Origin: Oscillospiraceae bacterium
Lineage (GTDB): Bacteria; Bacillota_A; Clostridia; Oscillospirales; Oscillospiraceae
DNA length: 55,549 bases
Assembly (NCBI GenBank): GCA_902786615.1
Contig: CADADE010000003.1
Coordinates: forward strand, 1-55,549
Direction of reading: 5' to 3'
Shown here: positions 1,851-36,195 of the stretch, one piece after another
Numbering within the stretch: the first letter of the stretch is position 1
Layout of the letters: each line of letters begins with the position of its first letter
Notes under the pieces: model-generated
The model's database searches: none
What the model was told of the DNA's origin: nothing
What the model saw: the letters and a program-made list of their open reading frames with translations, nothing else
Program-made: the position numbers and the translations under genes

Positions 1851-4800
1851 TCAGGCAAGGGGGTCAAGGCTTGAAATCCAACTCTTCCTGCAATACACCG
1901 TCAGCACCTTTTCCATCTCCCCACAGCGCACGGTGAGCTTACAGGTTTGCGGCAGACTTCCGCTGTCGATGCAGGAGACGCGCGCGGTATCATAGCCCGT
2001 TGACTCCACGCGGAGAATGTCGGGGTGATCGGAGCCCCATGTGATCGGCGTTCCCTGACGTGTGACATCTGCCCGCAGCTCAATGGGATCGCTGGAGAAG
2101 AGCGTGAAATCAGTCTTGATCTCGGTCTCATAAAACATCACACGGATGCCCTCCGCCGTCGGCATCGGTGTGGGTGGGACAGACATATACGGCCACAAGC
2201 GCCCAAGCCCCTGTGTATCGCCCATGACGCGGGCGGCGTTGATGATCAGGGCTGTGACCTTGGGCGCGTCGTTTGGATACACGGCAAAGCAGAGAGCTTC
2301 GTCCAGGGCGGCGTAGCCCCAGACTGTGGGGCTTGCGTTGTCGAGCTGCGCGTTTTCCACATAGCGGCGGTACTGCGCGTTCATGATCTGATCCAGCTCA
2401 CGCGAGAGGAAGGTTTCCTTGTCCGGGATGTGGACATAGCTCGTTTCGTGCTTCTCGCTGGGAATGATGACAGTGAGGGGGAAAGCCATATTGTCGGCCA
2501 GAGTCTGCCAGTCGCCCTGCGCGATGGCTTTCTGCACCTCAACCAGAAAGGCGTATTCGGGGCTGTCTGCCGGAATGGCCAGGATCACGCCCTCGCCGCC
2601 GCCCTCAACGGTGCACGCGACAAGCGCATCGTCACCGCCTACGTCGTACTGCCCGTCAAGACCGTCGATGGGCGTGCCGTTCCAGGTCTTATCCCCGGAT
2701 TCGCTGAAGCGCAGGGCAGGGGAGGGGACGTCATGGATGCTACAGTCGACAAAGCGAATGCCGTCGGTTTGGAAAAACTGCGCCGCGCCCTGGCTGCACT
2801 CGTAGATCTCCGTGCGCAGAATGTCAAGGGAAGTGCACTGACTGGCCTGAATGCCGAGGATTCCGCAGCCGAAGAGACGCATTTTTTCCAGCATGACCCC
2901 GTTGCAGCTCTCAAAGCGCAGTACGCCGCCGGAGCAAGCCCCCGGCTCTTTCGTGTGGCCCGCCGTGAAGCCGCCGAGGAAGAGATTGTCACAGTCCCGG
3001 AAGAAAATCACATCTGCGTAGCGCGGGATCGCGGCAAGGGTCGTGGCCCCGGACTCGGTGTTCTTGGCCTGAATCGAAAGCCCGTTCACGTCATGGATCA
3101 CAAGCTGCGGCCCGTCAACGTTTTCCGCCCAGTAGTAATACTCCGTCCCGATCCCGCCGTAGTTTGACGCTGTCGAGAGGTCGAAGAGTTCGCCGTCCAA
3201 AATAATTGTCCGGTCGGGACCGATGGCGGAGAGCAGCTCATCCACGTTTGTTACGGAGACCGAGCCGCCCTTCGCCAGCTCCATCGAGCCAGAGATCGGG
3301 ACGGGGGCGAGGATGGCGTTCGGGTCCAGCTCCCGCAGGGTCATGGCATCAAAGGCCGCAGGCTCCAAGGCCTTGCCCTCTGCGTCGGTGGCGAAGACGC
3401 CGCCGGTATTGCCGTACCAGCCGCCGCGCAGGCGGTTGTCTGCAAAACGGCAGCCGTCCACCGTCGCGCCGTACTCGGCAAAGGCAAAAATCGCAGACTC
3501 AAAGCTGTTGTTTTGCACTTCGTTTGAGAGGAAGACGGCGTTTTTCGTGTAGCTTGTGTTCAGCAGGTACTGGGCGTCGTTGTCATGGATGCGGCAGTCG
3601 ACGACCACAAAGCCATCGGAATAGTTCGCGTCGAAGAGGTTCAGCGCGGAACCCTGATCCGGCCTCATGCCGTGGTCGTGTACGTCGCAGTTTTCCACGC
3701 GCACATTGCGGCACTGGCCCACACTCACCGCGCCGTAGCTGCATTCATAGATGTCGGAATTTCTCACCGTAAGATCACGGCAGTCGCGCGCCCGAACGCC
3801 GAGGATGCCGCAGCCGTAGAGACCGCAGCCGTCCACCGTGCAGCCCTCGCTGCCGTCAAAGTACAGCACCCCGCCTGTGCAGAAGCCGGGCTCGGTCGTG
3901 TGTCCGGCGGTGAGCGCTTCGATATGTATGCCCCGGCACCCGGAGAAGCGGAGCACGTTTGCGTAGCGCGGGACGGCGGCAAGCGTGGTTTCGCCCATGC
4001 CCGCGCCCCGAATGGTGAGGTTTTTCACGTTATGCAGCACCAGTTCAAACCCGTCATAGACCTCGTTCCAACTATAGTACGGGCTGTGGGTGTCCTCGCC
4101 GTAATTCGACGCGGTCGAGAGGTCGAAGCTGCCGGGGGCGAGCTCGATCACTGTGTCCGGCGCGATGGCGGCAAGCAGCTCGTCCACGGTGGTGACGCGC
4201 GTCTCATTATCTGCAGCAGCCGGGGCCGCCCCGGCGGTCATGCCGCAGCCCAGCAGCAGCGCCACGGTCAGCACGGCGGTAAATATGCGCGCGCCGCTTT
4301 TTTTATAGTTCATGATCTGCTCCAGTCTTTCTTTCAAATTTCTCTTCTCAGTCGAGAAGGTGGTGGCTGCTACGCCCGCGGGCAGCGCCCCGTCGGAAGC
4401 CATATTTAAAAGCGTGTTGCCGTAGGAGAGCTTTTCCGCCCGATCCATGCCGCGCAGCAGCAGCTCATCACAGCTCAGCTCACAGGCGCGGTTCAGCTCC
4501 CGGCGGATCAGCCAGGAGAGGGGGTTGAACCACTGGGTGCTGAGTACCGCCACGGCAAACCACTTGTACAGCGGATCGCGCCGACGCCAGTGCATCAGCT
4601 CATGCCGCAGGATGTTTCGCAGCAGCTCTTCGTCATAGATGCGCTCCGGCAGGGTGATGACAGGATGCAGGACGCCGAACATCAGGGGCGTCGAGTAGGC
4701 GGCGCAGCGGTAAAGCTGCGGCTTTCGCCCCGGCAGGGAGCGGTAAATCCGCCTGTCTTCCTCTGCCGCGCGGCTGAGACTCCGGCGCACCCGGGCGATG

Positions 4801-5243
4801 AAGAGCATGTAGCCTGTGAGATACCCCGCAAAACAGAGCGTTGTGCCCACAGCCCAGACAGCGGTCCAAAACGCGGAAGATTTGAGGTTGACATAATTCT
4901 TTGACGGCTTGGGTGATTGCATGGGCTGTGCGGTCGGTTCCGCTTCTTCGGAAAACGGTTCCGTCCCTGTGGCCTGGACAAAGCCCTCCGACGGCAGCTG
5001 CATGGGCTGCGCACGGGGAAGAGGATAGGCGCTGACCACGGGGCGGGAGATCTCCCGCGCGGGGCGTTCCACCGGGATAAGACCCGGCAGGGGCAGGATG
5101 AAGCGCAGCAACACCAGAAGCCAGGCGTAGTAATACACCGTGCTGGGCATTTTCTTCAAAAACACATAGCGCAGCGCCAACAGCACCAGCGCCATCGCGC
5201 TGCCGCCGAGCGTCAGGCTGAGAAAATCAAGCAGCATTGTCAC
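1851..5243 (-). CDS. blaR1: BlaR1-family M56 membrane metallopeptidase with duplicated beta-helix ectodomain
   Basis: BlaR1/MecR1 proteins are membrane zinc proteases that sense an extracellular signal and trigger inactivation of the BlaI repressor. The N-terminal part is classic: TM segments near residues 8-30, 38-55 and 127-150, the zinc motif HELMH at 214-218, a CELSCDE motif at 254-260, and a final TM at about 319-338. The ectodomain (345-1130) is not the penicillin-binding sensor of classical BlaR1. It has two paralogous right-handed beta-helix modules (about 348-620 and 655-880), both with FDLSTASNYG, TTLAA(V/I)PRYA and FTAGHT/LTAGHT-type strings, then a mixed region and an Ig-like C-terminus. 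The total of 1130 residues is almost twice the usual length. The start is GTG at 5243, overlapping the blaI TGA as GTGA; an in-frame ATG lies two codons later. The signal sensed is unknown; a glycan or wall fragment is possible. Confidence 0.88.
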   Translation of the reverse strand: MTMLLDFLSLTLGGSAMALVLLALRYVFLKKMPSTVYYYAWLLVLLRFILPLPGLIPVERPAREISRPVVSAYPLPRAQPMQLPSEGFVQATGTEPFSEEAEPTAQPMQSPKPSKNYVNLKSSAFWTAVWAVGTTLCFAGYLTGYMLFIARVRRSLSRAAEEDRRIYRSLPGRKPQLYRCAAYSTPLMFGVLHPVITLPERIYDEELLRNILRHELMHWRRRDPLYKWFAVAVLSTQWFNPLSWLIRRELNRACELSCDELLLRGMDRAEKLSYGNTLLNMASDGALPAGVAATTFSTEKRNLKERLEQIMNYKKSGARIFTAVLTVALLLGCGMTAGAAPAAADNETRVTTVDELLAAIAPDTVIELAPGSFDLSTASNYGEDTHSPYYSWNEVYDGFELVLHNVKNLTIRGAGMGETTLAAVPRYANVLRFSGCRGIHIEALTAGHTTEPGFCTGGVLYFDGSEGCTVDGCGLYGCGILGVRARDCRDLTVRNSDIYECSYGAVSVGQCRNVRVENCDVHDHGMRPDQGSALNLFDANYSDGFVVVDCRIHDNDAQYLLNTSYTKNAVFLSNEVQNNSFESAIFAFAEYGATVDGCRFADNRLRGGWYGNTGGVFATDAEGKALEPAAFDAMTLRELDPNAILAPVPISGSMELAKGGSVSVTNVDELLSAIGPDRTIILDGELFDLSTASNYGGIGTEYYYWAENVDGPQLVIHDVNGLSIQAKNTESGATTLAAIPRYADVIFFRDCDNLFLGGFTAGHTKEPGACSGGVLRFESCNGVMLEKMRLFGCGILGIQASQCTSLDILRTEIYECSQGAAQFFQTDGIRFVDCSIHDVPSPALRFSESGDKTWNGTPIDGLDGQYDVGGDDALVACTVEGGGEGVILAIPADSPEYAFLVEVQKAIAQGDWQTLADNMAFPLTVIIPSEKHETSYVHIPDKETFLSRELDQIMNAQYRRYVENAQLDNASPTVWGYAALDEALCFAVYPNDAPKVTALIINAARVMGDTQGLGRLWPYMSVPPTPMPTAEGIRVMFYETEIKTDFTLFSSDPIELRADVTRQGTPITWGSDHPDILRVESTGYDTARVSCIDSGSLPQTCKLTVRCGEMEKVLTVYCRKSWISSLDPLA

Positions 5244-5620
5244 GATTCCTCCAGCCTGAACAGATCGCGCAGCTCGTCGATGTCTGCCTGGGTCAGCCCG
5301 TCGGACCGCACCAGCGCCGCCACCAGATCCCGCGCTGAGCCGTGATAAACGCGGCTGATGAGATCATGCGTGGCCCAGTCGTTGTATTCCTTCTCGGAAA
5401 TGCGCGGGGAATAGTAAAAAACATGCCGCTTTTCCTGCCGCAGCACCCCCTTGGTGACCAGGCGGGAGATCAAGGTCTTCACGGTTGTGGCCTCCCAACC
5501 GCGGCTTTTCTGTAAGGCCTCGCGGATTTCGGTGACGGGCAGGGCGTCCCCAGCGCGCCAGAGCACCCGCATGACCTCCAGCTCGGAATCGGATATTTTC
5601 GGCGCCAGATCCTTGGACAT
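5240..5620 (-). CDS. blaI: BlaI/MecI-family winged-helix transcriptional repressor
   Basis: Dimeric winged-helix repressor normally cleaved when the partner BlaR1 is activated. The 126-residue protein starting MSKDLAPKISDSELEVM has the family signature: LEVMRVLW near the N-terminus, then WEATTVKTLISRLVTKG (recognition helix) and a wing with FYYSPRISE. The ATG at 5620 is preceded by AAGGAGG. A longer in-frame extension to 5677 would run into the operators and lacks a ribosome site. The stop overlaps the blaR1 start by 4 nt, so the pair is translationally coupled. Two TACA-type dyads in its promoter imply autorepression. No beta-lactamase gene is next to it in this window, so other targets may lie elsewhere. 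Confidence 0.92.
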   Translation of the reverse strand: MSKDLAPKISDSELEVMRVLWRAGDALPVTEIREALQKSRGWEATTVKTLISRLVTKGVLRQEKRHVFYYSPRISEKEYNDWATHDLISRVYHGSARDLVAALVRSDGLTQADIDELRDLFRLEES

Positions 5621-5643
5621 GAAGAATACCTCCTTGAAGAGAT

Positions 5644-5653
5644 TACATGTGTA
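5644..5653. promoter_or_regulatory. BlaI-type operator 1 (TACATGTGTA)
   Basis: A perfect TACA-NN-TGTA dyad, the consensus recognised by BlaI/MecI repressors. It lies just downstream of the predicted -10 of the blaI promoter, where binding would block transcription start. Its centre is 41 bp from operator 2, about four helical turns, so the two sites face the same side of the DNA. Confidence 0.8.
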
Positions 5654-5667
5654 GTCTTGATACCTAT

Positions 5668-5696
5668 ACCATAGCACAACAGACTACACTTGTCAA
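5668..5696 (-). promoter_or_regulatory. blaI-blaR1 promoter
   Basis: Minus-strand TTGACA (5691-5696), 17-bp spacer, TATGGT (5668-5673). The -35 box overlaps operator 2 and the start region overlaps operator 1, which fits autorepression. Confidence 0.75.
5685..5694. promoter_or_regulatory. BlaI-type operator 2 (TACACTTGTC)
   Basis: A near-perfect TACA-NN-TGTA dyad (last base C) overlapping the -35 box. The wider 12-nt flanks of the two operators (5645-5656 and 5682-5693) are also inverted repeats of each other. Confidence 0.75.
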
Positions 5697-5961: not shown

Positions 5962-7338
5962 TTACCGCATGTATGCCGGGGGGTTCCGGCGGTGGTGGAT
6001 GTCCTTGTTTTCGTACATGGCCTCGTCCGCGCGGACAAAGACCTCACGGAAGAGCTGATCGCCGGGGCGGTAGGCGGCGGAGCCCATGGACAGGGAAAGC
6101 TGCGCCTCCGGGTGCGCGGGGTCGGCGTTGAAGGCCGTGACGGCGTCCCGGATGGTCGGGCGTTTGGCCTCGATCTCCTCCAGCTTCATGCCGCGCAGGA
6201 TAGCGATGAATTCGTCTCCGCCGATGCGGAAGGTGTGCTCCTTCCCAAAGGTCCCCGAGATGATCTGGGCCGCGCCGCGGATGATCTGATCCCCGCAGGC
6301 GTGACCGTGCAGGTCGTTCACGATTTTGAGGTTGTCGATATCGAAGACCGCGATGCCGAAGTCGGCAGAGCCGTCCTTGATCTGCTCATTCAGGCTGCGG
6401 ATCTCCTCCTGATAGGCGTTGGTGTTGCCGACGCGCGTGAGAGAATCCGTGTAGGCCTGGCCGTGCATGTATTCAAGATAGCGCTCCAGCTCAAGCTGCA
6501 TGGCGCGCAGCTTTTCGCCCAGAGACTCCAGCTCGTCGTCGGGGTTGTCGTCCACCGACGCGGGCGCGGCCGCCGCCGCCGCGGGCGTATTGCCGACGCT
6601 TTCCTTGTAACCCTGGTTGGCGGTGATCTCCTCTGTCAGCTGATCCACGTTTTTGGCAAGCGCGGAGATATCCTTTTCCAGCGCCTTGAACTTCTGGCGC
6701 AGCTTTCTCGTGATGAGCACCATCACAAACGCGCCGACCAGAACCGAGACGATGGAGACGATGCTGACCGAGAACGTGTGCTTATGAAGCTCCCTCTCGT
6801 ACCACTCTGAGCTGAAGTCGATGCCAACGACGCCCGTAACCTTGCCCTCGGAGTCAAACACGGGGCTGAAGGTGCTGTAGAAATTGCCCCAGCGGTCCTC
6901 GGCGGGGGAGTTGTCCGCTGTGGCGACGCCCTTGCCGGCCTCGATCAGGGCATCGGTCACCAGAACCTCTTCTCCGAACTGGCCGGGATCGACGGGATCG
7001 GCGTCCATGATGAAGACATAGGCATCCTCACCGACCTGGCGCACGGCGTAGATGAATTCGATGTCCGCCTTGGTCTGAAAGACGCTCAGATGCGAGAGCT
7101 GGTCATTGTAGGCGGGAGTACCGACGTCTTCCTCCGTAAAGGAGCCGAGCATGTCCCCGTCCAGAAGACCGGCGGCGGTATTGGAGAGATCCAGCATGTT
7201 TTTCTGGATCATGGTCTTCATGGCTGCCTCGGCCTGGCGCATCATCACAAGGCCGAGAATCACATTGGCTGCAAAGAGCAGCAGCCCGACGACCACCACA
7301 TAGCGGGTAGAGAGGCTGAAGCCTCTGTGTTTTTTCAT
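5962..7338 (-). CDS. Membrane diguanylate cyclase with extracytoplasmic Cache-like sensor
   Basis: Makes cyclic di-GMP from two GTP. The 458-residue protein has TM1 (about 12-32), an extracytoplasmic sensor (33-188) with DIEFIYAVRQVGEDAYVF and FSPVFDSEGKVTGVVGIDFS as in Cache/PAS-like ligand domains, TM2 (190-210), a coiled linker with an Ala/Pro stretch (240-265), and a GGDEF domain (295-458) with an intact GGDEF motif at 373-377 and DxLT-type DSLTRVGN. No RxxD inhibitory site precedes the motif, so product inhibition may be absent. The start is set at the ATG at 7338 (MKKHRGF). A TTG nine codons upstream lacks a ribosome site. It is the last gene of the signalling cluster, 123 bp after the permease-kinase. 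The sensor resembles that of the HD-GYP protein at 33967-36078. Confidence 0.92.
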   Translation of the reverse strand: MKKHRGFSLSTRYVVVVGLLLFAANVILGLVMMRQAEAAMKTMIQKNMLDLSNTAAGLLDGDMLGSFTEEDVGTPAYNDQLSHLSVFQTKADIEFIYAVRQVGEDAYVFIMDADPVDPGQFGEEVLVTDALIEAGKGVATADNSPAEDRWGNFYSTFSPVFDSEGKVTGVVGIDFSSEWYERELHKHTFSVSIVSIVSVLVGAFVMVLITRKLRQKFKALEKDISALAKNVDQLTEEITANQGYKESVGNTPAAAAAAPASVDDNPDDELESLGEKLRAMQLELERYLEYMHGQAYTDSLTRVGNTNAYQEEIRSLNEQIKDGSADFGIAVFDIDNLKIVNDLHGHACGDQIIRGAAQIISGTFGKEHTFRIGGDEFIAILRGMKLEEIEAKRPTIRDAVTAFNADPAHPEAQLSLSMGSAAYRPGDQLFREVFVRADEAMYENKDIHHRRNPPAYMR

Positions 7339-7461
7339 AGGTTCACCACCAGTAAGCGCGGACAAGCATCGTTATCCGCTGTCATCTGCAGAACAATACA
7401 GGATTTCCCTGCTTTAGTCAAGCGCAAAAGGCCGACGGCATGGCATTTTTGCCCCTGCCGC

Positions 7462-10400
7462 TCATTCTGCCCGACGCCCGACCAGCTTGCGCAGGGTCTC
7501 ATACAGGCGATCCGGCTCCACAGGCTTGGAGAGGTGCGCGTTCATGCCCGCCTGCACCGAGTTCTGTACATCCTCGTCAAAGGCGTTGGCCGTCATGGCG
7601 ATGATGGGGATCGTTTTGGCGTCGGGGCGATCGAGCGCGCGGATGGTAGAGGCGGCCGTGAGACCGTCCATCACCGGCATGCGCACGTCCATGAGAATCG
7701 CGTCATAATAGCCCGCCGCGTGTCCGGAGAACATGTCCACTGCGATCCGGCCGTTTTCGGCATGCTCCGCCTGGATGCCCTCCATATCCAGAAGATCCGT
7801 GAGGATTTCGGCGTTGAGGTCGACGTCTTCGGCCATCAGGACGCGAAGCCCCTCGAGAGAGACGATTTCTTCCGCCTTCGCCGGTTCCGCCTTTGCGCTG
7901 GATTCGGCAATGTCGCCGCGTTTGAGCAGAATGGAATGCAGCTCGTTCAGGAGGCTGTCGGTAAAGAGCGGCTTTGAGACGATGCCCGCCACGTTGAACT
8001 TCTTTGCCGGCTCCTGAATATCGTCCCAGCTGTAGCCCGTGAGAATGATCACGGAGGTCTGCCCCCGGTCGAATTTGCGTACGCACTCGGTCAGAGCGAG
8101 ACCGTCCATCCCGGGCATGTACATGTCCGTCATGAGGATCTGATAGGGCGTGCCATTGTCCCACATTGCGCGCAGGCGGGTGAGCGCTTCGGGCGCGTCG
8201 GAGGAGACGTCGGCCTCAATGCCGATGTCGTGCAGCACAAGGCGCGCATGCTCAAGCGCAACCTCGTCATTGTCCACGACCATGATACGCAGATCCTTCG
8301 GCAGACGCTCATGCTGCTCCTTGTTGAAGCCGCGCGCGGAGGGCTGGAGCGTCACCGTCACGGTGAAGGTGGAGCCGACGCCCTTTTCGCTCTCCACATG
8401 GATCTCGCCGTTCATCATCTCCACCAGGTTCTTGGTGATGGCCATGCCGAGACCTGTGCTGCCGTAGCGGTTGGCGGCGCCGGAATCCTCCTGGGAGAAG
8501 GTGTCGAAGATCTTCGGCAGAAAGTCCTTGCTCATGCCGATGCCGGTGTCCTTCATGGTGAAGCGCAGGGTGCAGCGATCTGCGGTGCGGGCGGTCTGCT
8601 CCACCGTAAAGGTGACGCTGCCGTCCGTGGGCGTAAACTTTACGGCGTTGCCGAGGATGTTGATAAGCACCTGCTTGAGCTTCATCGAGTCGCCGATGTA
8701 GTAGTCACAGACCTGGCCGATGATATTGCACTCGTAATGAAGGCCCTTGTCCTGGCACTGGCCGTTGATGATGACGTTGATCTGATCGAGAAAATCGCGG
8801 AAGGCGAATTCTTCGCTTTTCAGGACCATTCTGCCGGACTCGATGCGGCTCATGTCCAGAATATCATTGATCAGGCCGAGAAGATGCCGCGCGCTTGCGC
8901 CGATTTTTTCCAGATGCTCCCGCGTGTGCGGGGGGAGGTCCGGCTCCTTCAGGGCGATGTTGTCAAGGCCGATGATGGCGTTCATGGGCGTGCGGATCTC
9001 ATGGCTCATGTTGGACAGGAAGCTGGTCTTGGCGCGGCTGGATTCCTCGGCAACGGCCTTTTCCTGCTCCATCTGCTTTTCGCGCCTGTGAATCGTGGTA
9101 TAGATGTTCACAAGCGTCGCCACCGAGACGACCACGAAGAGGATCTGCACAAGGCTGTTTTCCCACAGCGCGTCGCTGACGCTCTCAAGCTGCCTGTCCA
9201 CGTATTCGTCCGCCTTGAGCTGATCGAGCGCGGTATGCTCGCCGTTCTCGGCAAGCTGCGTCTCATAATAATTGTGGATGTTGGTCACGGCCTGACGCGC
9301 GGTGGCGACGGAGCTCTGCCGCATCCAGACGAGGGAGGTGAAGAGCGTGAGCGAAAGCATGACAATCCACACGATGGTGGAGCGGCCCATGGAGCGCGTC
9401 TTGTCCCGCGCAAGCAGCATGCGGAAAACGATCAGCCCCAGCACGCTCCAGAGCGCGAGAATGAGGTACGACTCACGCGAGAGCGCCGACACGGACAGTA
9501 GATTCGGAATGAGATAATACAGCAGGAAGATCAGCGAGATCACAACGCCGGAGAAGCCCGTGGCCATGACAAGCCGATTGTTTGTCTTGCGCGCAAGCTT
9601 CAGCGCGCAGGCGGAGGTGTAGGCGTAGACGATGGCCGCGCCGACCGTGGTCACGTCTACGATCCAGCCGACGGCAGTCCGGCCGAAGAGCGGGATGAAC
9701 ACGGAGACCGCGAGGATCAGAAGCGTGGCGTTTCGCGGCATGCCGTTTTTGTCAAGCTCCGAGAAATGCCTGGGCATCATGCCGTCGCGCGCCATGGCGC
9801 ACAGCAGGCGGCTTGCCGCGATGGTGTTGCCGATCAGGCCGGTAATGACGCCGCCGAGCACGGTGAGCACCAGAACGGGCGTACCCACGGGCCCCATGGC
9901 CGTGCGCACGGCGTAGAAGGTGGGGGCGGCCTCGCTGACGTCCAGCGTGTCCTTCGCGGCAATGTATTCAGGCCAGCTTTCAAAGCCCGCCGGCAGGGTC
10001 GTCGCGGCGATGACGGCCAGCAGGGAATAGGCAAGCGCGCCCGTGAGCAGGGCGGCGCCCATGATGGGCAGCGCCTTTTTCAGCGAAAAGCGAAATTCCG
10101 GCGCGGAGTGGGAGATGGACTCGAAGCCCACAAAGGCCCAGGGGGACATGGCCACTATGGTCAGGACCCCGGCGAAGGGAGACCTGCCGGGCATGAAGGG
10201 CGGCGCGAGAGATTTGAGCCCTCCCTCCAGCCGGGAGAAAACGGACACGGAGCAGACCAGCACCCCGCCGAAGAGAAGAAGCGCCATCACGATCTGCGCG
10301 CTCACGGCGGCCCTGCCGTGCAGGCACAGGAGGCTGCAGACGACCAGCGCCCCGATGGCAAGCACCAGCTCCCCGAGGTAGATGTCAAAGCCGGCGATCT

Positions 10401-10806
10401 GATAGTGCAGACCGACCTGAAAGACGTTTCCCAGCAGGAAGCGGCCGATGAGCGGCAGGGCGGTGGCGTTTGCCCAGACGATGGCCACATAGGTCAAAAG
10501 CAGAAACCATGACGCCACAAAGCCATGGTCGGCGTCAAAGCTGTTTTTGACATAGCTGAACGCGCCGCCGGCGTCCGGCCAGGCGCGCAGCATATAGTGA
10601 TAGTTCACGCCCACAAGGAGCATGATGAGCGCGCCGACGGCAATGCCGATCACCGTACCCAGCGGGCCCGCGACCGGCAGAAAGCTGTTGCCGGGCATCA
10701 TGAAAGCGCCCCAGCCCACAGCACAGCCGAAAGACAGCGCCCAGGCGCCGAGCGGCGTTATACTGTGAGGCGAGCTCGCGCCTGCTTCCCTATGAATCGT
10801 ATCCAT
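7462..10806 (-). CDS. APC-type amino acid permease fused to a hybrid histidine kinase with two receivers
   Basis: A probable transceptor of 1114 residues. Residues 15-470 form a complete APC-superfamily permease with about 12 TM helices and the N-terminal GCAVGWGAFMMPGNS substrate loop. TM13 (about 478-495), a short external loop (496-553) and TM14 (554-571) follow. The kinase has HisKA with SHEIRTP (phosphoacceptor H602), an N box (NILGNAVKF), G boxes DTGIGM and GSTGLGM, then REC1 (acceptor D894 in TDMYMPGMDG) and REC2 (D1040 in MDVRMPVMDG). The start is the ATG at 10806, preceded by AAGAAGG; a TTG at 10818 abuts that site. It follows the HPt gene by 50 bp. CbrA-type kinases carry an SLC5 transporter in the same way, but this one uses the APC fold. 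The substrate is unknown. Confidence 0.93.
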   Translation of the reverse strand: MDTIHREAGASSPHSITPLGAWALSFGCAVGWGAFMMPGNSFLPVAGPLGTVIGIAVGALIMLLVGVNYHYMLRAWPDAGGAFSYVKNSFDADHGFVASWFLLLTYVAIVWANATALPLIGRFLLGNVFQVGLHYQIAGFDIYLGELVLAIGALVVCSLLCLHGRAAVSAQIVMALLLFGGVLVCSVSVFSRLEGGLKSLAPPFMPGRSPFAGVLTIVAMSPWAFVGFESISHSAPEFRFSLKKALPIMGAALLTGALAYSLLAVIAATTLPAGFESWPEYIAAKDTLDVSEAAPTFYAVRTAMGPVGTPVLVLTVLGGVITGLIGNTIAASRLLCAMARDGMMPRHFSELDKNGMPRNATLLILAVSVFIPLFGRTAVGWIVDVTTVGAAIVYAYTSACALKLARKTNNRLVMATGFSGVVISLIFLLYYLIPNLLSVSALSRESYLILALWSVLGLIVFRMLLARDKTRSMGRSTIVWIVMLSLTLFTSLVWMRQSSVATARQAVTNIHNYYETQLAENGEHTALDQLKADEYVDRQLESVSDALWENSLVQILFVVVSVATLVNIYTTIHRREKQMEQEKAVAEESSRAKTSFLSNMSHEIRTPMNAIIGLDNIALKEPDLPPHTREHLEKIGASARHLLGLINDILDMSRIESGRMVLKSEEFAFRDFLDQINVIINGQCQDKGLHYECNIIGQVCDYYIGDSMKLKQVLINILGNAVKFTPTDGSVTFTVEQTARTADRCTLRFTMKDTGIGMSKDFLPKIFDTFSQEDSGAANRYGSTGLGMAITKNLVEMMNGEIHVESEKGVGSTFTVTVTLQPSARGFNKEQHERLPKDLRIMVVDNDEVALEHARLVLHDIGIEADVSSDAPEALTRLRAMWDNGTPYQILMTDMYMPGMDGLALTECVRKFDRGQTSVIILTGYSWDDIQEPAKKFNVAGIVSKPLFTDSLLNELHSILLKRGDIAESSAKAEPAKAEEIVSLEGLRVLMAEDVDLNAEILTDLLDMEGIQAEHAENGRIAVDMFSGHAAGYYDAILMDVRMPVMDGLTAASTIRALDRPDAKTIPIIAMTANAFDEDVQNSVQAGMNAHLSKPVEPDRLYETLRKLVGRRAE

Positions 10807-10856
10807 TCCGTGAATCAACCTTCTTATCTGAAACTGTCAAAAACAGAAAAGTAAGC

Positions 10857-11225
10857 TCAGCCCTGTGCGTACTGCTCGATCCCGGCGACGGTGCGCTTGT
10901 ACATGGCGTCAATGTCGGCGAGCATGGCCTTGATCTCTTCGTCGCTGTGCTTTCTCTGATTGCCGGGGCGGAATTCCTCCGTAATGAGACCGACAGCCTC
11001 GGAAAGCTTGTCAAAGCCCATGTTGGCGCATACGCCCTTCATGGCGTGGGCGCTCTCAAAAAGCCGGGTGGGATCCATACTCTCGCCCGCCGCCATCAGG
11101 GTGTCGTTCAGGCCGCCGGCGGGGAATTTGCGCACATAGCGGTCGATCAGCTTATCCATTCTCATAATCTGTACAGCGTGGTCATAGTTGCCGTCAACCA
11201 GGGCGTAGAGTTCCTGCAGTGTCAT
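10857..11225 (-). CDS. Free-standing HPt phosphotransfer protein
   Basis: A 122-residue histidine phosphotransfer protein that shuttles phosphate between receiver domains. The four-helix bundle has the signature FESAHAMKGVCANMGF, placing the phosphoacceptor at H60 with the usual K63 and G64. Its ATG overlaps the stop of the upstream REC-GGDEF-EAL gene by 4 nt (ATGA), so the two are translationally coupled. It lies between that regulator and a hybrid kinase, which makes it the likely hub linking both kinases of the cluster. The sequence does not show which receivers it serves. Confidence 0.9.
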   Translation of the reverse strand: MTLQELYALVDGNYDHAVQIMRMDKLIDRYVRKFPAGGLNDTLMAAGESMDPTRLFESAHAMKGVCANMGFDKLSEAVGLITEEFRPGNQRKHSDEEIKAMLADIDAMYKRTVAGIEQYAQG

Positions 11226-12925
11226 GATAGTCTCTCCTTTTTCGCTTCAATTTCTTTTTCAATCAGTTTTTCAAAATCCGCCGCCGGGAGCGGGCGGGAA
11301 AAGTAGTAACCCTGTACGTAGTCGCAATCGGCGTTCCGCAGCAGCTGGAGCTGGTGCTCGGTCTCCACGCCCTCGGCCACAACGGGGACCTTGAGATAAC
11401 GGGCGATGTCCAGGATCAGCTCCACCAGGCGGAAGTCGCGGTCGTCCTTTTCTACGTTCTGGATAAAATTCATATCCATTTTCAGCACGTCGATGGGCAG
11501 CTTCGAGATGGTGTTGAGCGAGGAGTAGCCGGAGCCGAAGTCATCCATCTCAATCTCAAAGCCGAGGTTTCGAAGCTGTTGGATGACGGAGACAAGCTGC
11601 TCGGCGTCGTCCGTGTAGGCAGACTCGGTCACCTCCAGCTTAAAGTCCTTCATGGAAAGACCGTTTTCCTCCATCAGCTTCAAAAGCTCTTTCTCGAGGC
11701 CGGGATCAAAGACCTCCGTGCGTGAGAGGTTGACGGACACGGCCACGGTCACGCCGTATTCTTCACGCCAGGCGGCGACCTGCCGGGCCGCCTCCTCCCA
11801 GACGTAGCGATCCACCATGTGGATGAGGCCGTTTTTTTCGAAGAGCGGGATGAAATCCCCGGGGCTGATGAAGCCAAGCTCGGGGTGGACCCAGCGCACC
11901 AGCGCCTCGGCGCTGTTCAGGCGCGGGGGGTTGCACTGAATATCATATTTGGGCTGATAATAGACATGAAACTGCCGCTCCTCCACAGCCTGGCGCAGAT
12001 CGTTGAGAAGGCGCTGGGAGTAGATCTCCCGTTTATACATGTCCTCGTTGTAGATCATCAGGTGGGTCTTGTAGCTGCCGCGCACCAGGTTGCAGGCCGT
12101 GCGCGCCCGGTCAAAGAGCATGACGAGGGATACGTTCTCACTGCCGGGGCATACGCCCATGCGCAGCCGGACGGAGACGCGCGGGGACAGCTCGTTCACC
12201 CTGCGCTGGAAGAACTGGAGCACCGCGTGGTAATCCTCACAGTGCAGGCAGTAGATATCAAAGCGGTCGGCGTCCTCGCGGCAGGCGATCCCCTCCGTCC
12301 CGCGCAGAAACTCCTTGATGGCGTCGCTGAGGGCGCGCAGCGCGCTGTCGCCGAATTCGCGGCCGTTCAGGTCGTTGACGGAGTGAAAGCGCTCAAAATT
12401 GATGACCACGGCGTCCATGGTCCATTGCGGATGATAGCGCTTGATCTGATCGGCATACTCAAAGAAGAAGCCCCAGTTATAAAGCCCTGTCAGCGGGTCG
12501 CGCTCGGCTGCGCGGATGAGGCGGCGGCCCTCGCTCAGTTCGATGATCCTGGCGACGCGGGCCAGAATGATCTCGTGCATGTCAAAGGGCTTGGTGATGA
12601 AATCCGCCGCGCCGAGCTGCAGGGCGCGCAGCTCCGCGTCCTTCTCGGCGGTGAGCACGATGACGGGGATGCGGCGCAGCTGCTCGTCCGCCCGCATGCG
12701 CGAAAGCACCTCAAATCCGTCCATCACCGGCATCATCAAATCGAGCAGCACAATGGAGAGGCTTTTCACATGCTCCCGGATAACGTCCAGCGCCTCCGCC
12801 CCGTTTTCGGCGTAGAGCACGTCGTAATCGTTCTCCAGAATCATGCCCAGAATATCACGGTTGAGCTCCTGATCCTCCACCACCAGCACCTGGCGGCGGA
12901 GCTGGATATGTTCCGACTGAATCAT
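11222..12925 (-). CDS. Response regulator REC-GGDEF(degenerate)-EAL, c-di-GMP phosphodiesterase
   Basis: Predicted to degrade c-di-GMP under phosphorelay control. In 567 residues: REC (11-125) with phosphoacceptor D62 in LLDLMMPVMDG; a GGDEF-like domain (about 150-300) in which the catalytic motif is replaced by DADRF, so cyclase activity is unlikely; and an EAL domain (about 315-560) with the catalytic set visible (EALVRW, VSVNLSR, LEVTES, DDFGSGYSSLN, LKMD, AEGVET, YVQGYYFS). The ATG at 12925 is preceded by AGGAGG; the longer frame to 13009 would overlap the upstream kinase. The HPt gene overlaps its stop and the kinase lies 44 bp upstream. The degenerate GGDEF may act as a GTP-sensing regulatory domain, as known in some EAL proteins; that is inference. 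Confidence 0.93.
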   Translation of the reverse strand: MIQSEHIQLRRQVLVVEDQELNRDILGMILENDYDVLYAENGAEALDVIREHVKSLSIVLLDLMMPVMDGFEVLSRMRADEQLRRIPVIVLTAEKDAELRALQLGAADFITKPFDMHEIILARVARIIELSEGRRLIRAAERDPLTGLYNWGFFFEYADQIKRYHPQWTMDAVVINFERFHSVNDLNGREFGDSALRALSDAIKEFLRGTEGIACREDADRFDIYCLHCEDYHAVLQFFQRRVNELSPRVSVRLRMGVCPGSENVSLVMLFDRARTACNLVRGSYKTHLMIYNEDMYKREIYSQRLLNDLRQAVEERQFHVYYQPKYDIQCNPPRLNSAEALVRWVHPELGFISPGDFIPLFEKNGLIHMVDRYVWEEAARQVAAWREEYGVTVAVSVNLSRTEVFDPGLEKELLKLMEENGLSMKDFKLEVTESAYTDDAEQLVSVIQQLRNLGFEIEMDDFGSGYSSLNTISKLPIDVLKMDMNFIQNVEKDDRDFRLVELILDIARYLKVPVVAEGVETEHQLQLLRNADCDYVQGYYFSRPLPAADFEKLIEKEIEAKKERLS

Positions 12926-12969
12926 TCTATTCCTCCTGAGAAGGCGACAGCCCTCTCTGCAAGTCATAA

Positions 12970-14451
<1,482 letters not shown>

Positions 14452-14632: not shown

Positions 14633-15559
14633 TTACCGCAGCGGCTCGATGGTTTCAATGTCGTAGGGGGTAGACTGGTAGACAAAGTAGTTGAGCCAGT
14701 TCATGTACAGGAGATTGGCGTGGCTGCGCCAGGTGACCATGGGCGCCTTTTGGGGATCGTCGTCCTGGAAATAGTTCTCCGGGATATGGGGGTCAAGGCC
14801 CTGGCTCAGATCGCGCAGGTACTCGTTCTTGAGCGTGTCCGCGTCATATTCGGAGTGGCCCGTGATGAAGATCTGCCGCCCGCCCTCCGTCGCGGCGGCG
14901 TAGAGCCCCGCCTTCTCGGACACGGCGAGGATCTTGAGCTTGTCGCAGGCCATCACATCCTCCAGCGCGACCGTGGTGTTGCGGGAGTGGGGGACCATGA
15001 AGCAGTCGTCAAAGCCGCGCATCAGCATGGACGAGCGGCGCACCACCCAATGCGGGTACACGCCCGAGAGCTTCTCCGGCAGGGCAATCTTCTGAATCCC
15101 GTAGTGGTAATAGAGAGCCGCCTGCGCCGCCCAGCAGATGTGAAAGGTGCTGTGCACATGGGTCTTTGTCCACTCCATAATCGTGCAGAGCTCCTGCCAG
15201 TAATCCACCTGCTCAAAGGACATCTTCTCCACCGGCGCGCCGGTGATGACCATTCCGTCAAAGTAGCGGTCCTTCACATGGTCAAAATCCGTGTAGAATT
15301 TCAGCATATGCTCCGGCGCGGTGTTGCGCCCGACATAGCTGCTGGTCTGCATCAGCTCCAGCTCCACCTGCAAAGGGGTATTGCTCAAAAGCCTTGACAG
15401 CTGCGTCTCGGTGGCGATCTTCGTCGGCATCAGGTTCAAAAGCAGCACCTGCAGCGGGCGGATGTCCTGGGTCATGGCCCGCCTCTCCGTCATGACGAAG
15501 ATGTTCTCGCTCTCAAGCACCTGGGTCGCCGGGAGCTGATTGGGTATCTTGATCGGCAT
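14633..15559 (-). CDS. metA: Homoserine O-acetyltransferase (MetA family)
   Basis: Activates homoserine for methionine synthesis. Residue numbering matches the known MetA enzymes exactly: catalytic C142 (in FHICWAAQ), H235 and E237 (in TGHSEYD). Residue 111, in TGAPVEKM, is Glu. In this family Glu at 111 goes with acetyl-CoA use and Gly with succinyl-CoA, so acetylation is predicted despite the common name homoserine O-succinyltransferase. The ATG at 15559 (MPIKIPNQLPA) has AGGAGG upstream; the frame extends 14 codons further without a ribosome site. The length of 308 residues is normal. It lies 56 bp after metY, which uses its product, and a terminator follows. Confidence 0.96.
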   Translation of the reverse strand: MPIKIPNQLPATQVLESENIFVMTERRAMTQDIRPLQVLLLNLMPTKIATETQLSRLLSNTPLQVELELMQTSSYVGRNTAPEHMLKFYTDFDHVKDRYFDGMVITGAPVEKMSFEQVDYWQELCTIMEWTKTHVHSTFHICWAAQAALYYHYGIQKIALPEKLSGVYPHWVVRRSSMLMRGFDDCFMVPHSRNTTVALEDVMACDKLKILAVSEKAGLYAAATEGGRQIFITGHSEYDADTLKNEYLRDLSQGLDPHIPENYFQDDDPQKAPMVTWRSHANLLYMNWLNYFVYQSTPYDIETIEPLR

Positions 15560-15615
15560 TTTGTGCCTCCTGGATGTTTGCGATGAAAGCGGCGCTTCCA
15601 TCGCAAAAAATGAAT

Positions 15616-16884
15616 TTAGGAAAGAGCGTTGTCGATGTCGGCGATGAGGTCCGCCGCGTCCTCCAGGCCGCAGGAGTAGCGGATCAGATCCGGGGAAACC
15701 CCGGCGGCGGCAAGCTCCGCGTCCGACATCTGGCGGTGGGTGCTGCTCGCGGGATGGAGGGTGCAGGTCCTGGCGTCGGCCACATGGGTTTCGATGGCGG
15801 CGATCCGCAGCCGACCCATGAAGCGCTCCGCCGCGGCGCGCCCGCCCTTGACGCCGAAGCTCACCACGCCGCAGGTGCCGTTCGGCATGTATTTGCGCGC
15901 AAGCTCATAATAGCGGTCGCCTTCCAGACCGGGGTAGGTCACCCACGCGACGCGGGGATCGTTTTTCAGAAACTGCGCGACCTTCAGGCCGTTTTCACAG
16001 TGGCGTGCCATGCGCACATGCAGGCTCTCAAGACCGAGGTTCAGATAAAAGGCGTTCTGCGGGGACTGGATGGAGCCAAAGTCGCGCATGAGCTGGGCCG
16101 TGGCCTTGGTGATGAAAGCGCCGCCGAGACCAAAGCGCTCGGTATAGGTCACGCCGTGATAGCTCTCATCCGGGGTGCAAAGCCCGGCAAAGCGCTCGGG
16201 GTACTTCGTCCAGTCGAATTTGCCGCTGTCCACGATCGCGCCGCCGACGCTCACGCCGTGCCCGTCGATATACTTGGTGGTGGAGTGGGTCACAATGTCC
16301 GCGCCCCACTCGAAGGGACGGCAGTTGACGGGCGTGGCGAAGGTATTGTCCACGATGAGCGGGACGCCATGCGCATGAGCAGCCTTTGCAAAGCGCTCAA
16401 TATCCAGTACGGTCAGGGCCGGGTTTGCGATGGTCTCGCCGAAGACGGCCTTGGTGTTGGGGCGGAAAGCGGCCTCCAGCTCCTCGTCCGTGCAGTCGGG
16501 GGAGACAAAGGTGAAGTCAATGCCCATGCGCTTCATGGTCACGGCAAAGAGATTATAGGTGCCGCCGTAGATGCTGGAGCTGGAGACGACATGGTCCCCG
16601 CAGGAGGCAATATTGAAAACGGAATAGAAGTTTGCCGCCTGGCCGGAGCTTGTGAGCATGCCGGCCGTGCCCCCCTCCAGCGCCGCGATCTTGGCGGCGA
16701 CGTAGTCGTTGGTGGGGTTTTGCAGACGGGTATAGAAATAACCGCTGGCCTCCAGGTCAAAGAGCTTTCCCATCTCGGCGCTGGTGGCGTATTTGAAGGT
16801 CGTACTCTGTACGATCGGGATCTGGCGCGGCTCGCCGTTTCCGGGCGTATAGCCGCCCTGGACGCATGTGGTGCCGATACTCAT
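15616..16884 (-). CDS. metY: O-acetylhomoserine sulfhydrylase (MetY)
   Basis: PLP enzyme that makes homocysteine from O-acetylhomoserine and sulfide. The 422-residue length is typical of MetY rather than of cystathionine gamma-synthase (about 380). The PLP lysine is K204 in HSTTKYIDGHG. Other family segments are TSSGQAANFYS, SSSIYGGTYNLF, VDNTFATP and the C-terminal SCGLEDAADLIADI. The ATG at 16884 is preceded by GGAAGGGA. It is the first gene of the metY-metA operon under a near-consensus promoter, with a small hairpin in the leader. No SAM-I (S-box) riboswitch is evident, so control may be by a repressor. Confidence 0.95.
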   Translation of the reverse strand: MSIGTTCVQGGYTPGNGEPRQIPIVQSTTFKYATSAEMGKLFDLEASGYFYTRLQNPTNDYVAAKIAALEGGTAGMLTSSGQAANFYSVFNIASCGDHVVSSSSIYGGTYNLFAVTMKRMGIDFTFVSPDCTDEELEAAFRPNTKAVFGETIANPALTVLDIERFAKAAHAHGVPLIVDNTFATPVNCRPFEWGADIVTHSTTKYIDGHGVSVGGAIVDSGKFDWTKYPERFAGLCTPDESYHGVTYTERFGLGGAFITKATAQLMRDFGSIQSPQNAFYLNLGLESLHVRMARHCENGLKVAQFLKNDPRVAWVTYPGLEGDRYYELARKYMPNGTCGVVSFGVKGGRAAAERFMGRLRIAAIETHVADARTCTLHPASSTHRQMSDAELAAAGVSPDLIRYSCGLEDAADLIADIDNALS

Positions 16885-16980: not shown

Positions 16981-17132
16981 TGCGCAGGCGCCGACCAAAA
17001 TGAATAACTACGCGCTTTTGTTGAAAAGCGATCAAAACCGGACGGAATGGTCAAAACAAAATGTCAGCATTGCAGAAAGTGCCGCAAAATCCGATTTTCA
17101 ATAAAATTAGTCTACAAAAAGGAAAAAGACTA

Positions 17133-17141
17133 TGATATAAT
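17133..17141 (+). promoter_or_regulatory. Extended -10 promoter of the HD-GYP gene
   Basis: TGATATAAT is an extended -10 (TGnTATAAT) about 47 bp before the ATG at 17188. No good -35 is seen. The region 16885-17187 otherwise holds only the divergent metY control region. Confidence 0.6.
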
Positions 17142-17187
17142 AAAAAAGATTATGCGATCCGGAAGGATCTGGAAGGATAAAAATGCT

Positions 17188-18441
17188 ATGTTCAAAAAGC
17201 TGAAAGAGACCTGGGCGATGCTCAATCGCTCCATCTATACCGGAGAGCGATTGGAGCAGAACCTTCGCGCTCTCTCGTATGTGAGCATAGTGACGGCGGC
17301 GTTGGGGCTGCTGCTCACGGTGTATAATGTCTTTTCCGGGGAAAAGATCATGCTGCTCGCCTCGATCAACACCCTGCTCGGCGGTCTTGGCTGCTGGTAC
17401 TGCGCCGCCGTGCTGAAAAACAGGGAGGCCGCGGCGGTGATCCCCACGACCTTCTGCGCGATCGTCTTCACCATCTACACCGTTTTCGGTCTCGGGCACG
17501 GGACGGCCATGCTCTGGTCGATCCTGATGCCCATCGGCCTGTGCTACTTTGTGAGCGTCAAATACGGCATCATCCTCTCCGCTTACTATTCGCTGATGTT
17601 TATAGTGGTGTTCTATACGCCCCTGCAGGCACGCATGGCCCAGTATTACTCAGAGGCGTTTATGATGCGCTTCCCGCTGCTTTTTCTGACCCTCACGCTC
17701 TTCACGGCCATCGCCATGATCCAGTATCACCGTGTGTCCCTCCTGGAGCTTGACTATCAGGAGGAGCTGAGCCGTGAGGTCGAAAAGCAGACCCACGTCG
17801 CCAAGGAGCGGGCGCAGAGTTTTGAAACCCTGAGCCGCGAGATCGTTGAGACGCTCGCCGTCACCATCGACGCGAAGGACCGGTACACCAACGGTCACTC
17901 CTTCCGCGTGGCCCGGTATTCGACGGCGCTTGCCGGAAAGCTTGGCTGGGGCGAGGAGGACATTAAGATGCTGGGCGGGGAAGCGCTGCTGCATGACATC
18001 GGGAAAATCGGCGTCCCGGATGCGGTGCTGAACAAGCCCGGGCGGCTCACCGATGAGGAATTCAAAATCATCCAATCCCACACGACGGTGGGCGATACGA
18101 TCCTGAAGCAATCGGGCAGCCTGACGAATGCGGCGCTGGTGGCCCGCCATCATCATGAGCGCTATGACGGTCACGGTTATCCGGACGGCCTGAAAGGGGA
18201 GAGCATCCCCCTGCACGCGCGCCTTGTCGCCATCGCGGACGCCTACGACGCCATGCGCTCGGACCGTATTTACAGAAAGGGCCTGCCCGCAGACGTGATC
18301 CGCGGAGAGATGATCAAAGGGCGCGGCACCCAGTTTGACCCGAAACTGCTGGACGAATTCATGCAGCTGATGGATACAAGCATTCTCGATGAAATCGCGG
18401 AGAGCGACGTCTTCCGGTGGAGCGAGCCGGAATCGGCATGA
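17188..18441 (+). CDS. HD-GYP domain protein with polytopic membrane sensor
   Basis: Predicted c-di-GMP phosphodiesterase of 417 residues. The N-terminal part has about six TM helices (roughly 30-180) with short loops, resembling a MASE-type membrane sensor. A coiled segment (185-215) leads into the HD-GYP domain (about 216-405) with HD at 269-270 (LLHDIGKIGVPD), HHHERYDGHGYPDGLKG (GYP 330-332) and ADAYDAMRSDR. All residues expected for activity appear present. The ATG at 17188 has GGAAGG upstream; the longer frame to 17047 spans the promoter. Its stop overlaps the start of the next gene by 4 nt, tying it to the SpoT-like HD/kinase fusion. Confidence 0.92.
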   Translation: MFKKLKETWAMLNRSIYTGERLEQNLRALSYVSIVTAALGLLLTVYNVFSGEKIMLLASINTLLGGLGCWYCAAVLKNREAAAVIPTTFCAIVFTIYTVFGLGHGTAMLWSILMPIGLCYFVSVKYGIILSAYYSLMFIVVFYTPLQARMAQYYSEAFMMRFPLLFLTLTLFTAIAMIQYHRVSLLELDYQEELSREVEKQTHVAKERAQSFETLSREIVETLAVTIDAKDRYTNGHSFRVARYSTALAGKLGWGEEDIKMLGGEALLHDIGKIGVPDAVLNKPGRLTDEEFKIIQSHTTVGDTILKQSGSLTNAALVARHHHERYDGHGYPDGLKGESIPLHARLVAIADAYDAMRSDRIYRKGLPADVIRGEMIKGRGTQFDPKLLDEFMQLMDTSILDEIAESDVFRWSEPESA

Positions 18442-36078: not shown

Positions 36079-36195
36079 AGCGAAACATCCTTCCAAAAAT
36101 ATGTAATAAAAAAGCGGGCAACGCTTCTGCTCCGCAAAGCCGAAACAGAACCCCGTCTGATTATTATAATAGTAAATAATATCCAATGATATATC

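Follow-up and report, generated by a model that had tools for sequence, protein, structure and literature searches.

A putative sensor kinase built on an APC-type permease, and a bacterial family of related fusions with modular outputs

Introduction

The closest described counterparts of the protein reported here are CbrA and MxtR/CrbS of Pseudomonas and Vibrio, in which a LeuT-fold transporter likewise lies N-terminal to a histidine kinase (excerpts of PMC7096432 and PMC13022988). According to both excerpts CbrA is a histidine transporter; that of PMC13022988 terms it a rare transporter-kinase and describes how its sensing connects to signalling as long unclear. No activity of CbrA was significantly affected by its substrate (excerpt of PMC7096432), so a transporter-kinase fusion is in itself no proof of gating. 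The transporter of CbrA and CrbS belongs to SLC5 and its linkers are STAC and PAS domains, whereas our fusion carries an APC-family permease joined to the kinase by two predicted membrane helices and an outer hairpin. The partners described for SLC5-STAC kinases, in the partial accounts cited here, are separate response regulators. In Actinobacteria, SSS domains are also combined with HATPase, GAF and PP2C_SIG (excerpt of PMC7918813), a precedent for a transporter input with several kinds of output; GGDEF or EAL outputs go unmentioned in that excerpt.

Other transport folds serve the same end. In Ks-Amt5 a transport protein is the input of a histidine kinase without a PAS, HAMP or STAC linker, and kinase phosphorylation is coupled to ammonium; it differs from our fusion in its trimeric ammonium transporter fold and is presented as one protein (excerpt of PMC5764959). 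The 5TMR/S-component sensor kinases likewise use a transporter fold, although it is that of an S-component and not of an APC-kind secondary transporter (excerpt of PMC11109136). In yeast, the amino acid permease fold of Gap1 acts as a nutrient receptor (excerpt of PMC3166329). The arginine/agmatine antiporter AdiC and other APC/SLC7 proteins share with our fusion the fold and several pocket positions in TM1, TM3, TM6 and TM10, but AdiC has no signalling domain. Yeast Ssy1 is a permease-type amino acid sensor; both it and Gap1 are eukaryotic and, unlike our protein, are not known to carry a fused kinase. In full-text literature searches, with subscription papers mostly outside their scope, none of the matches listed described a family of APC-kinase or APC-GGDEF fusions.

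Results

The fusion gene

The window analysed here is a stretch of 55,549 nucleotides from an Oscillospiraceae bacterium, probably of rumen origin, and the parts given with coordinates below lie on its minus strand. The APC-HK-REC-REC fusion occupies 7462..10806 as a single frame of 1114 aa, running from an ATG at 10806 to 7462 without an internal stop; the plus-strand reading of the same interval is interrupted by stops, and the initial annotation had named no strand. A TTG lies upstream, at 10818. Pfam matches AA_permease_2 to residues 18-452 (E 7.6e-22), AA_permease to residues 29-454, HisKA to residues 592-658 (8833..9033), HATPase_c to residues 705-821 (8344..8694) and Response_reg to two stretches, receiver 1 (7918..8286) and receiver 2 (7492..7842). 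The proposed union of permease, HisKA-HATPase and two receivers in one frame is thus real. At E 0.001, neither an SLC5/SSS nor an ammonium transporter domain was matched in the membrane half, the AA_permease families being the only Pfam matches there.

The HisKA and HATPase boxes are intact. The phospho-acceptor H602 (9001-9003), N720, the G1 and G2 glycines, D894 of receiver 1 and D1040 of receiver 2 are invariant across 49 aligned proteins. The assertion that every kinase and receiver motif is intact therefore holds for these catalytic residues but not for residue 846, the second acidic position of receiver 1, where the window has Asn and at least 90% of the 49 aligned rows have the usual Asp. 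Pairwise alignment gives receiver 2 an identity of 67% with the receiver of a neighbouring HK-REC kinase but of 22% with receiver 1.

The permease half and the adapter

The permease core (9397..10761, residues 16-470) appears complete: PF13520 is matched above cut-off over profile positions 3-420 of 427, the predicted fold is complete and the pocket is conserved. The structural prediction called for in the initial annotation gave, for residues 1-595, a LeuT-type core in which TM1 and TM6 are broken, by which we recognize an APC fold, and two more long helices. The full-length model (pTM 0.55) retains the TM1 break and has TM6 as a single helix, 221-233.

At 16 positions mapped from a list of what we take to be the AdiC pocket residues, the mean frequency of the top residue is 0.863, against 0.657 for membrane positions (155 rows: the window, 120 listed homologues and 34 loci). 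About one in 10,000 random position sets matched this mean, which may in part stem from folding constraints near the broken helices. In a wider comparison of 360 proteins among the matches listed, W32, G33, N113, W223, G227 and E229 are a single residue wherever aligned, one row being gapped at W32 and G33. These proteins come from three search lists and are grouped by source list rather than by their own domains; P0106 and P0244 are short, and some GGDEF-list proteins bear receivers or EAL. Position 229 is Glu in all 360 of these signalling proteins and Asp in 22 of 24 stand-alone permeases, a set from which L047 was excluded. Similarly, a TM8 pocket position is N or M in signalling proteins and F in stand-alone relatives, and a TM1 Pro has become Thr in 115/121 GGDEF-list and 116/120 GGDEF-REC-GGDEF-EAL-list proteins among the matches listed. 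Signalling permeases nonetheless retain the TM1 and TM6 motifs common to stand-alone relatives. By alignment, AdiC Ser26 corresponds to Trp and AdiC Trp293, the Trp that stacks on arginine, to Asn in the fusion. A TM5 lysine is a trait of proton-coupled APC transporters. We read the permease pocket as a ligand sensor, with binding putative.

Two extra membrane helices between permease and kinase, as originally suggested, are predicted both from hydrophobic stretches and from the models. TM13 (9316..9381, residues ~476-497) falls within a helix, 477-521, of the model of residues 1-595. An outer helical hairpin follows in the models (9151..9315, residues ~498-552), and TM14 (9088..9150, residues ~553-573) forms, in the full-length model, part of a helix spanning 526-620 that is continuous with the first kinase helix. 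This linker, a helix-hairpin-helix in the models, matched no further family of the Pfam library used, which may lack a STAC model.

A family with several outputs

Permease and kinase domains occur together in 119 of the best 120 of 1606 homologues, and because the layout is so widely shared the fusion is not due to chance. The top homologue is 98% identical; at this identity there is a cluster of seven sequences on four contigs with the same layout as our fusion, and this cluster, with the many diverged homologues of the same layout, rules out a frameshift or a chimaeric contig. A break at the junction in related genomes had been named as evidence against the fusion: one locus, L032, is split between permease and kinase, and its near relative L008 is intact. 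Other splits fall within the kinase (L026) or within the permease (L072 and one of two L048 genes). Among 77 loci, counted with split genes left unmended, permease and kinase, whole or cut, share one frame in 47, and 24 carry a permease of stand-alone length; of the remaining six, contig ends truncate L030, L073 and L075, the gene is split in L032 and broken in L076, and L077 has no permease match. L089 was left out (wrong frame chosen), and L088, L092 and further neighbours of L090 lay outside the study.

The unit of permease, TM13 and TM14 is fused to histidine kinases, to GGDEF domains and to GGDEF-REC-GGDEF-EAL arrays, with the input N-terminal and the output C-terminal. The transporter half thus recurs on other signalling outputs and so looks like a reusable sensor. 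In L079, L082 and L085 it is fused to a REC-GGDEF-EAL part 47-48% identical to the separate REC-GGDEF-EAL protein of the window. Not all members resemble ordinary kinases, since in short, mostly tandem proteins of Selenomonas and Anaerovibrio the ATPase patterns were mostly not matched (G2 0/16, G1 4/16). A quick tree supports the signalling side at no more than 88, with an unsure root and long branches for L047 (stand-alone) and L080 (very long). No relative was found in the viral contigs scanned. Where sources give names, these are mostly "amino acid permease".

Gene neighbourhood

The gene order is HK-REC, REC-(motif-less GGDEF)-EAL, Hpt, fusion and GGDEF. The HK-REC kinase (12970..14451) has a hydrophobic N-terminus and is a conserved neighbour. 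The REC-GGDEF-EAL protein (11222..13009) probably starts later than the listed GTG, because relatives align from about residue 29; it has lost the GGDEF motif and retains the EAL, DDFG, EGVE and QG patterns. In 18 such separate proteins the counts are EAL 18, DDFG 18, QG 18, EGVE 13 and GG[DE]E[FY] 0. The Hpt protein (10857..11225, 122 aa) has an HAxKG motif, and the GGDEF protein downstream of the fusion (5962..7365), with its motif intact, belongs to a cluster that occurs as a neighbour in seven loci, the window included. Kinase, receiver, Hpt and terminal receiver with their phospho-sites are therefore all present in the window, and these neighbours are predicted to form a phosphorelay to c-di-GMP turnover. 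The initial annotation had passed over the Hpt and REC-EAL genes, the second hybrid kinase and the GGDEF gene, which make the pathway readable.

An Hpt gene lies within 600 bp upstream in 18 of 19 two-receiver fusions but in one of 18 one-receiver fusions (Fisher p 2e-8, without correction for kinship). Both automatic counts gave L049 one receiver, but it is entered here with two on account of its length and its kinship to L004; L004 itself is cut by a contig end, and the comparison covers frames of at least 880 aa, leaving aside tandem pairs and cut genes. Not every fusion has such relay partners, since L081, with two receivers, and 17/18 one-receiver fusions lack an Hpt gene within this distance upstream. 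In L036 and L046 an Hpt gene lies elsewhere in the locus on the opposite strand, and L024 has an apparent in-chain Hpt (E 1.4e-4; 22.4 bits, slightly below the Pfam cut-off of 24.6). Upstream in the window are methionine genes, a link unconserved across loci, with a MetA relative only in L002 (cut) and L075. No riboswitch reached gathering score in the window or four loci, and one tRNA was found.

Discussion

The sequence and models give good support to a sensor kinase whose input is a complete APC permease. Sequence or models show the domains, the retained catalytic residues, the order of the genes, the likeness of the receivers, the conserved pocket and the modular swapping of outputs; ligand binding, coupling, the direction of phosphoflow and the physiological output are what we infer. 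In our proposal, to which we give about two chances in three, sensing falls to the permease half: a small solute from outside the cell, amino acid or amine-like, would bind in the APC pocket between broken TM1 and TM6, and the change of conformation that follows would move TM13 and TM14. TM14 is predicted to leave the outer hairpin, cross the membrane and continue unbroken into the first kinase helix, which bears H602, so this change would alter autophosphorylation. Phosphate would then pass from H602 to receiver 2, to the separate Hpt and to the receiver of the REC-GGDEF-EAL protein, changing c-di-GMP breakdown, with receiver 1 intermediate or regulatory. The neighbouring HK-REC kinase may feed the same Hpt, and the GGDEF protein behind the fusion may supply the opposite activity.

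The initial annotation had gone further, proposing that an APC-based protein senses amino acid flux directly. Fold, pocket, conservation and the three outputs support the APC-based sensor well; as for flux, binding without transport fits equally well, and the ligand is perhaps not an amino acid. A permease fold that, like non-transporting permease-type sensors, keeps ligand binding but has lost transport, a reading compatible with the sensing part of our proposal, is a serious contender to which we nevertheless incline somewhat less than even: the fixed pocket differences at position 229 and in TM8, and the frequent TM1 Thr of the cyclase-bearing proteins, speak for it, whereas the complete core, the retained TM1 and TM6 motifs and the transport retained by CbrA (excerpt of PMC7096432) speak against it. 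As for the ligand alone, a choline/ethanolamine-type amine or other small solute is a tentative possibility. Members of a helix-turn-helix nucleotidyltransferase gene cluster occur in 15/24 stand-alone permease loci, directly upstream in 5/5 checked with Pfam, and one product, the single case compared, matches the CTP:phosphocholine cytidylyltransferase 1jyk (E 4.8e-24). With such a gene beside many stand-alone relatives the ligand does not have to be an amino acid, and the Asn at the AdiC W293 position fits this. Yet the nearest curated models, though matched far below cut-off, are amino acid transporters (TIGR00909, BcaP), and the window has its upstream methionine genes, unconserved as that link is. 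The stand-alone L091 locus has MurJ and TarF-like genes nearby, which are uninformative on substrate.

The remaining readings take the sensing role from the permease. A membrane-loop-membrane arrangement is a usual layout among sensor kinases, so the permease might be a mere anchor and the outer hairpin the sensor. The hairpin is, however, the least conserved part (0.35, 155 rows) and has 26-30 residues rather than ~56 in 8/35 aligned rows, and a near-invariant pocket would be needless in an anchor; we consider this reading very improbable. Signalling might also run in reverse, the kinase or c-di-GMP state governing transport, as the title of a fold match, KimA with c-di-AMP, points to an APC-fold transporter that binds a cytosolic second messenger. 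To this too we give little credence, as the input-helix-output layout recurs with three different outputs and relay partners adjoin.

The APC fusion family is a real, widespread and new form of transporter-kinase sensor with modular outputs. We lean towards the broader view that the APC fold with TM13, hairpin and TM14 is a general bacterial input module for histidine kinases, diguanylate cyclases and cyclase-phosphodiesterase hybrids, and that bacteria have several paralogues, differing in pocket residues (N or M in TM8) and sometimes side by side, that read different solutes into one c-di-GMP pool. Such a large family couples one transporter-like input to several outputs that are easily read, as phosphate and c-di-GMP, and its natural paralogues with different outputs offer a direct test of whether a LeuT-fold transport cycle or ligand binding alone drives the signal. 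Our analysis also points to solute-sensing, permease-shaped receptors as a means by which some bacteria of the rumen and gut may set their level of c-di-GMP.

Results

That a permease, a kinase and two receivers share one frame, as the initial annotation proposed, was borne out by the 1114-aa product read on the minus strand from 10806 to 7462, in which Pfam places AA_permease_2 at residues 18-452, HisKA at 592-658, HATPase_c at 705-821 and two receivers in the C-terminal part. The APC permease-kinase fusion is real. A search with it, in which scoring was limited to the 7996 candidates with the most shared words, returned 1606 homologous proteins. Permease and kinase domains occur together in 119/120 listed proteins, the top match being 98% identical; the sole exception, P0100, combines a permease with GGDEF. 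Most of these 120 have no source name, and those that do are mostly called "amino acid permease". The closest genome loci, at 82% identity, lie in rumen bins labelled Ruminococcaceae.

The kinase motifs were followed by pattern search. Among 36 hybrids of at least 880 aa, G1 was found in 36, G2 in 36, H in 33 and N in 30, with at least one receiver Asp motif in every protein. The corresponding figures for 16 short APC-HK frames, mostly Selenomonas/Anaerovibrio tandem pairs (loci L037-L043, L045 and L048), were 4, 0, 12 and 8, and from these patterns the short tandem pairs may work as degenerate partners. A CheB-containing cluster gene is close to 7/9 tandem loci, confirmed by Pfam in L041 only and in the non-tandem L044.

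The genome scan yielded 77 loci, comprising 47 fused, 24 stand-alone and 6 cut, split or unassigned. By record name, fused members occur in Oscillospiraceae/Ruminococcaceae, Lachnospiraceae, Selenomonadaceae and one Eggerthellaceae, among others, and further in Synergistales, one Anaerolineaceae and one Verrucomicrobia bin; since many source genomes are metagenome bins, isolated odd placements could be binning errors. Counted whatever their output domains, frames of more than 650 aa holding a permease match were present in 7/60 genomes around one host genome, G001, itself included (E <= 1e-30), and in 5/291 genomes of a class draw that also included it (E <= 1e-80). G001 encodes four related permeases in open frames of 1118, 747, 1487 and 492 aa, the second being APC-GGDEF and the third APC-GGDEF-REC-GGDEF-EAL. 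In the two non-HK classes, GGDEF accompanies the permease in 120/120 listed proteins (of 776) and 119/120 listed (of 1344). In a quick tree, signalling permeases fell on one side and stand-alone ones on the other (support 88), the GGDEF label changing at least twice; the two signalling-side rows labelled "alone" come from L030, which is cut, and L032, which is split.

The operon in the window runs HK-REC, REC-GGDEF-EAL, Hpt, fusion, GGDEF protein, and adjacent frames, as listed, share 40 and 4 bases or are separated by 50 and 96 bases; the 40-base overlap probably vanishes with the true start, because an early GTG is listed and relatives align from about residue 29. At L087 (genome G037), HK-REC, REC-GGDEF-EAL, Hpt, APC-HK-REC-REC, APC-GGDEF-REC-GGDEF-EAL and APC-GGDEF follow one another on one strand, so that three consecutive, differing APC-fused signalling genes occupy L087:4333-14350. 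The separate Hpt proteins retain HxxKG (21/21), and the separate REC-GGDEF-EAL proteins have GG[DE]E[FY] in 0/18, EAL, DDFG and QG each in 18/18 and EGVE in 13/18. An Hpt gene lies no more than 600 bp upstream of 18/19 two-receiver fusions (exception L081) but of only 1/18 one-receiver fusions (L022), L049 being placed with the two-receiver fusions by its length and kinship to L004 and L024 being counted with neither group; the p value of 2e-8 overstates independence because the loci are related. In a Synergistales bin, L024:9980-13456 joins APC-HK-REC and a probable Hpt, just below the Pfam cut-off, in one chain. Receiver 2 of the fusion is 67% identical to the receiver of the neighbouring HK-REC, and the kinase cores are 47% identical, which is consistent with the two proteins sharing one Hpt.

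Elsewhere in the window, a 1130-aa protein (1851-5243, minus strand) joins a BlaR1-type M56 peptidase sensor with a right-handed beta-helix region and adjoins a small repressor-like gene (5240-5677, minus), which we take to be BlaI; relatives of this pair adjoin the operon in L001, L002, L003 and L027. Two proteins with Pfam HD_5/HD domains (17047-18441, plus; 33967-36186, minus), presumably HD-GYP-like, are possible further c-di-GMP phosphodiesterases, and one 506-aa frame (18417-19937, plus) combines a Pfam HD_4 domain with an APH (phosphotransferase) domain. The operon is immediately preceded on its own strand by genes (14633-16884, minus) for homoserine O-succinyltransferase and for a Cys/Met PLP enzyme; this methionine-gene linkage was not conserved among the loci compared.

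Discussion

What might the permease half bind? Its closest curated models are amino acid transporters, with scores far under cut-off. In an alignment at 25% identity, where individual positions may shift by one, S26, G27, G100, W202, G206, E208, W293 and Y365 of the arginine/agmatine antiporter AdiC correspond to W32, G33, N113, W223, G227, E229, N327 and Y394 of the fusion. We take these AdiC residues to line the pocket. PMC5809530 names G100 as the equivalent of LeuT V104. Across 155 rows, mean top-residue frequency was 0.863 at 16 mapped pocket positions versus 0.657 at membrane positions, a pocket value reached by about 1 in 10,000 random position sets, and 0.35 in the outer hairpin. Position E229 is Glu in 360/360 listed signalling proteins but Asp in 22/24 stand-alone relatives; position N327 is Asn in 117/119 of the HK list and 120/121 of the GGDEF list, Met in 119/120 of the GGDEF-REC-GGDEF-EAL list, with Phe there in 23/24 stand-alone relatives. 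Such class-specific residues suggest that ligands differ by class. A helix-turn-helix nucleotidyltransferase is a common neighbour of the stand-alone relatives (15/24 loci): among six loci checked by Pfam, the permease directly follows such a gene in L050, L056, L059, L062 and L070, and its place is taken by an ATP-grasp gene in L063. The single nucleotidyltransferase compared, that of L053, is LicC-like, resembling CTP:phosphocholine cytidylyltransferase.

Pocket and kinase are both highly conserved, the hairpin varies, and one input is set on several outputs. The most economical interpretation is a receptor with a permease fold, in which occupancy of the pocket would be relayed via TM13/TM14. 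The hairpin, variable in sequence, nevertheless has preferred lengths (medians per list: 56, 49 and 50), with 26-30 residues in 8/35 aligned rows and 39-54 in a few. TM6 is unbroken in a second structure model of the fusion. The permease half may plausibly also transport. Transport was shown for CbrA but none of its activities was significantly affected by histidine (PMC7096432), whereas Ks-Amt5 couples ammonium to phosphorylation (PMC5764959); either outcome is possible for the fusion.

In the literature searched, we found no description of the APC version, of the GGDEF and GGDEF-REC-GGDEF-EAL variants or of the three-sensor gene row. The transporter-kinase principle itself is already known from CbrA and Amt5, and PMC7918813 mentions SSS domains with another output (PP2C). 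To this principle the APC family adds a further member, and there is a case for regarding it as a general new input module.
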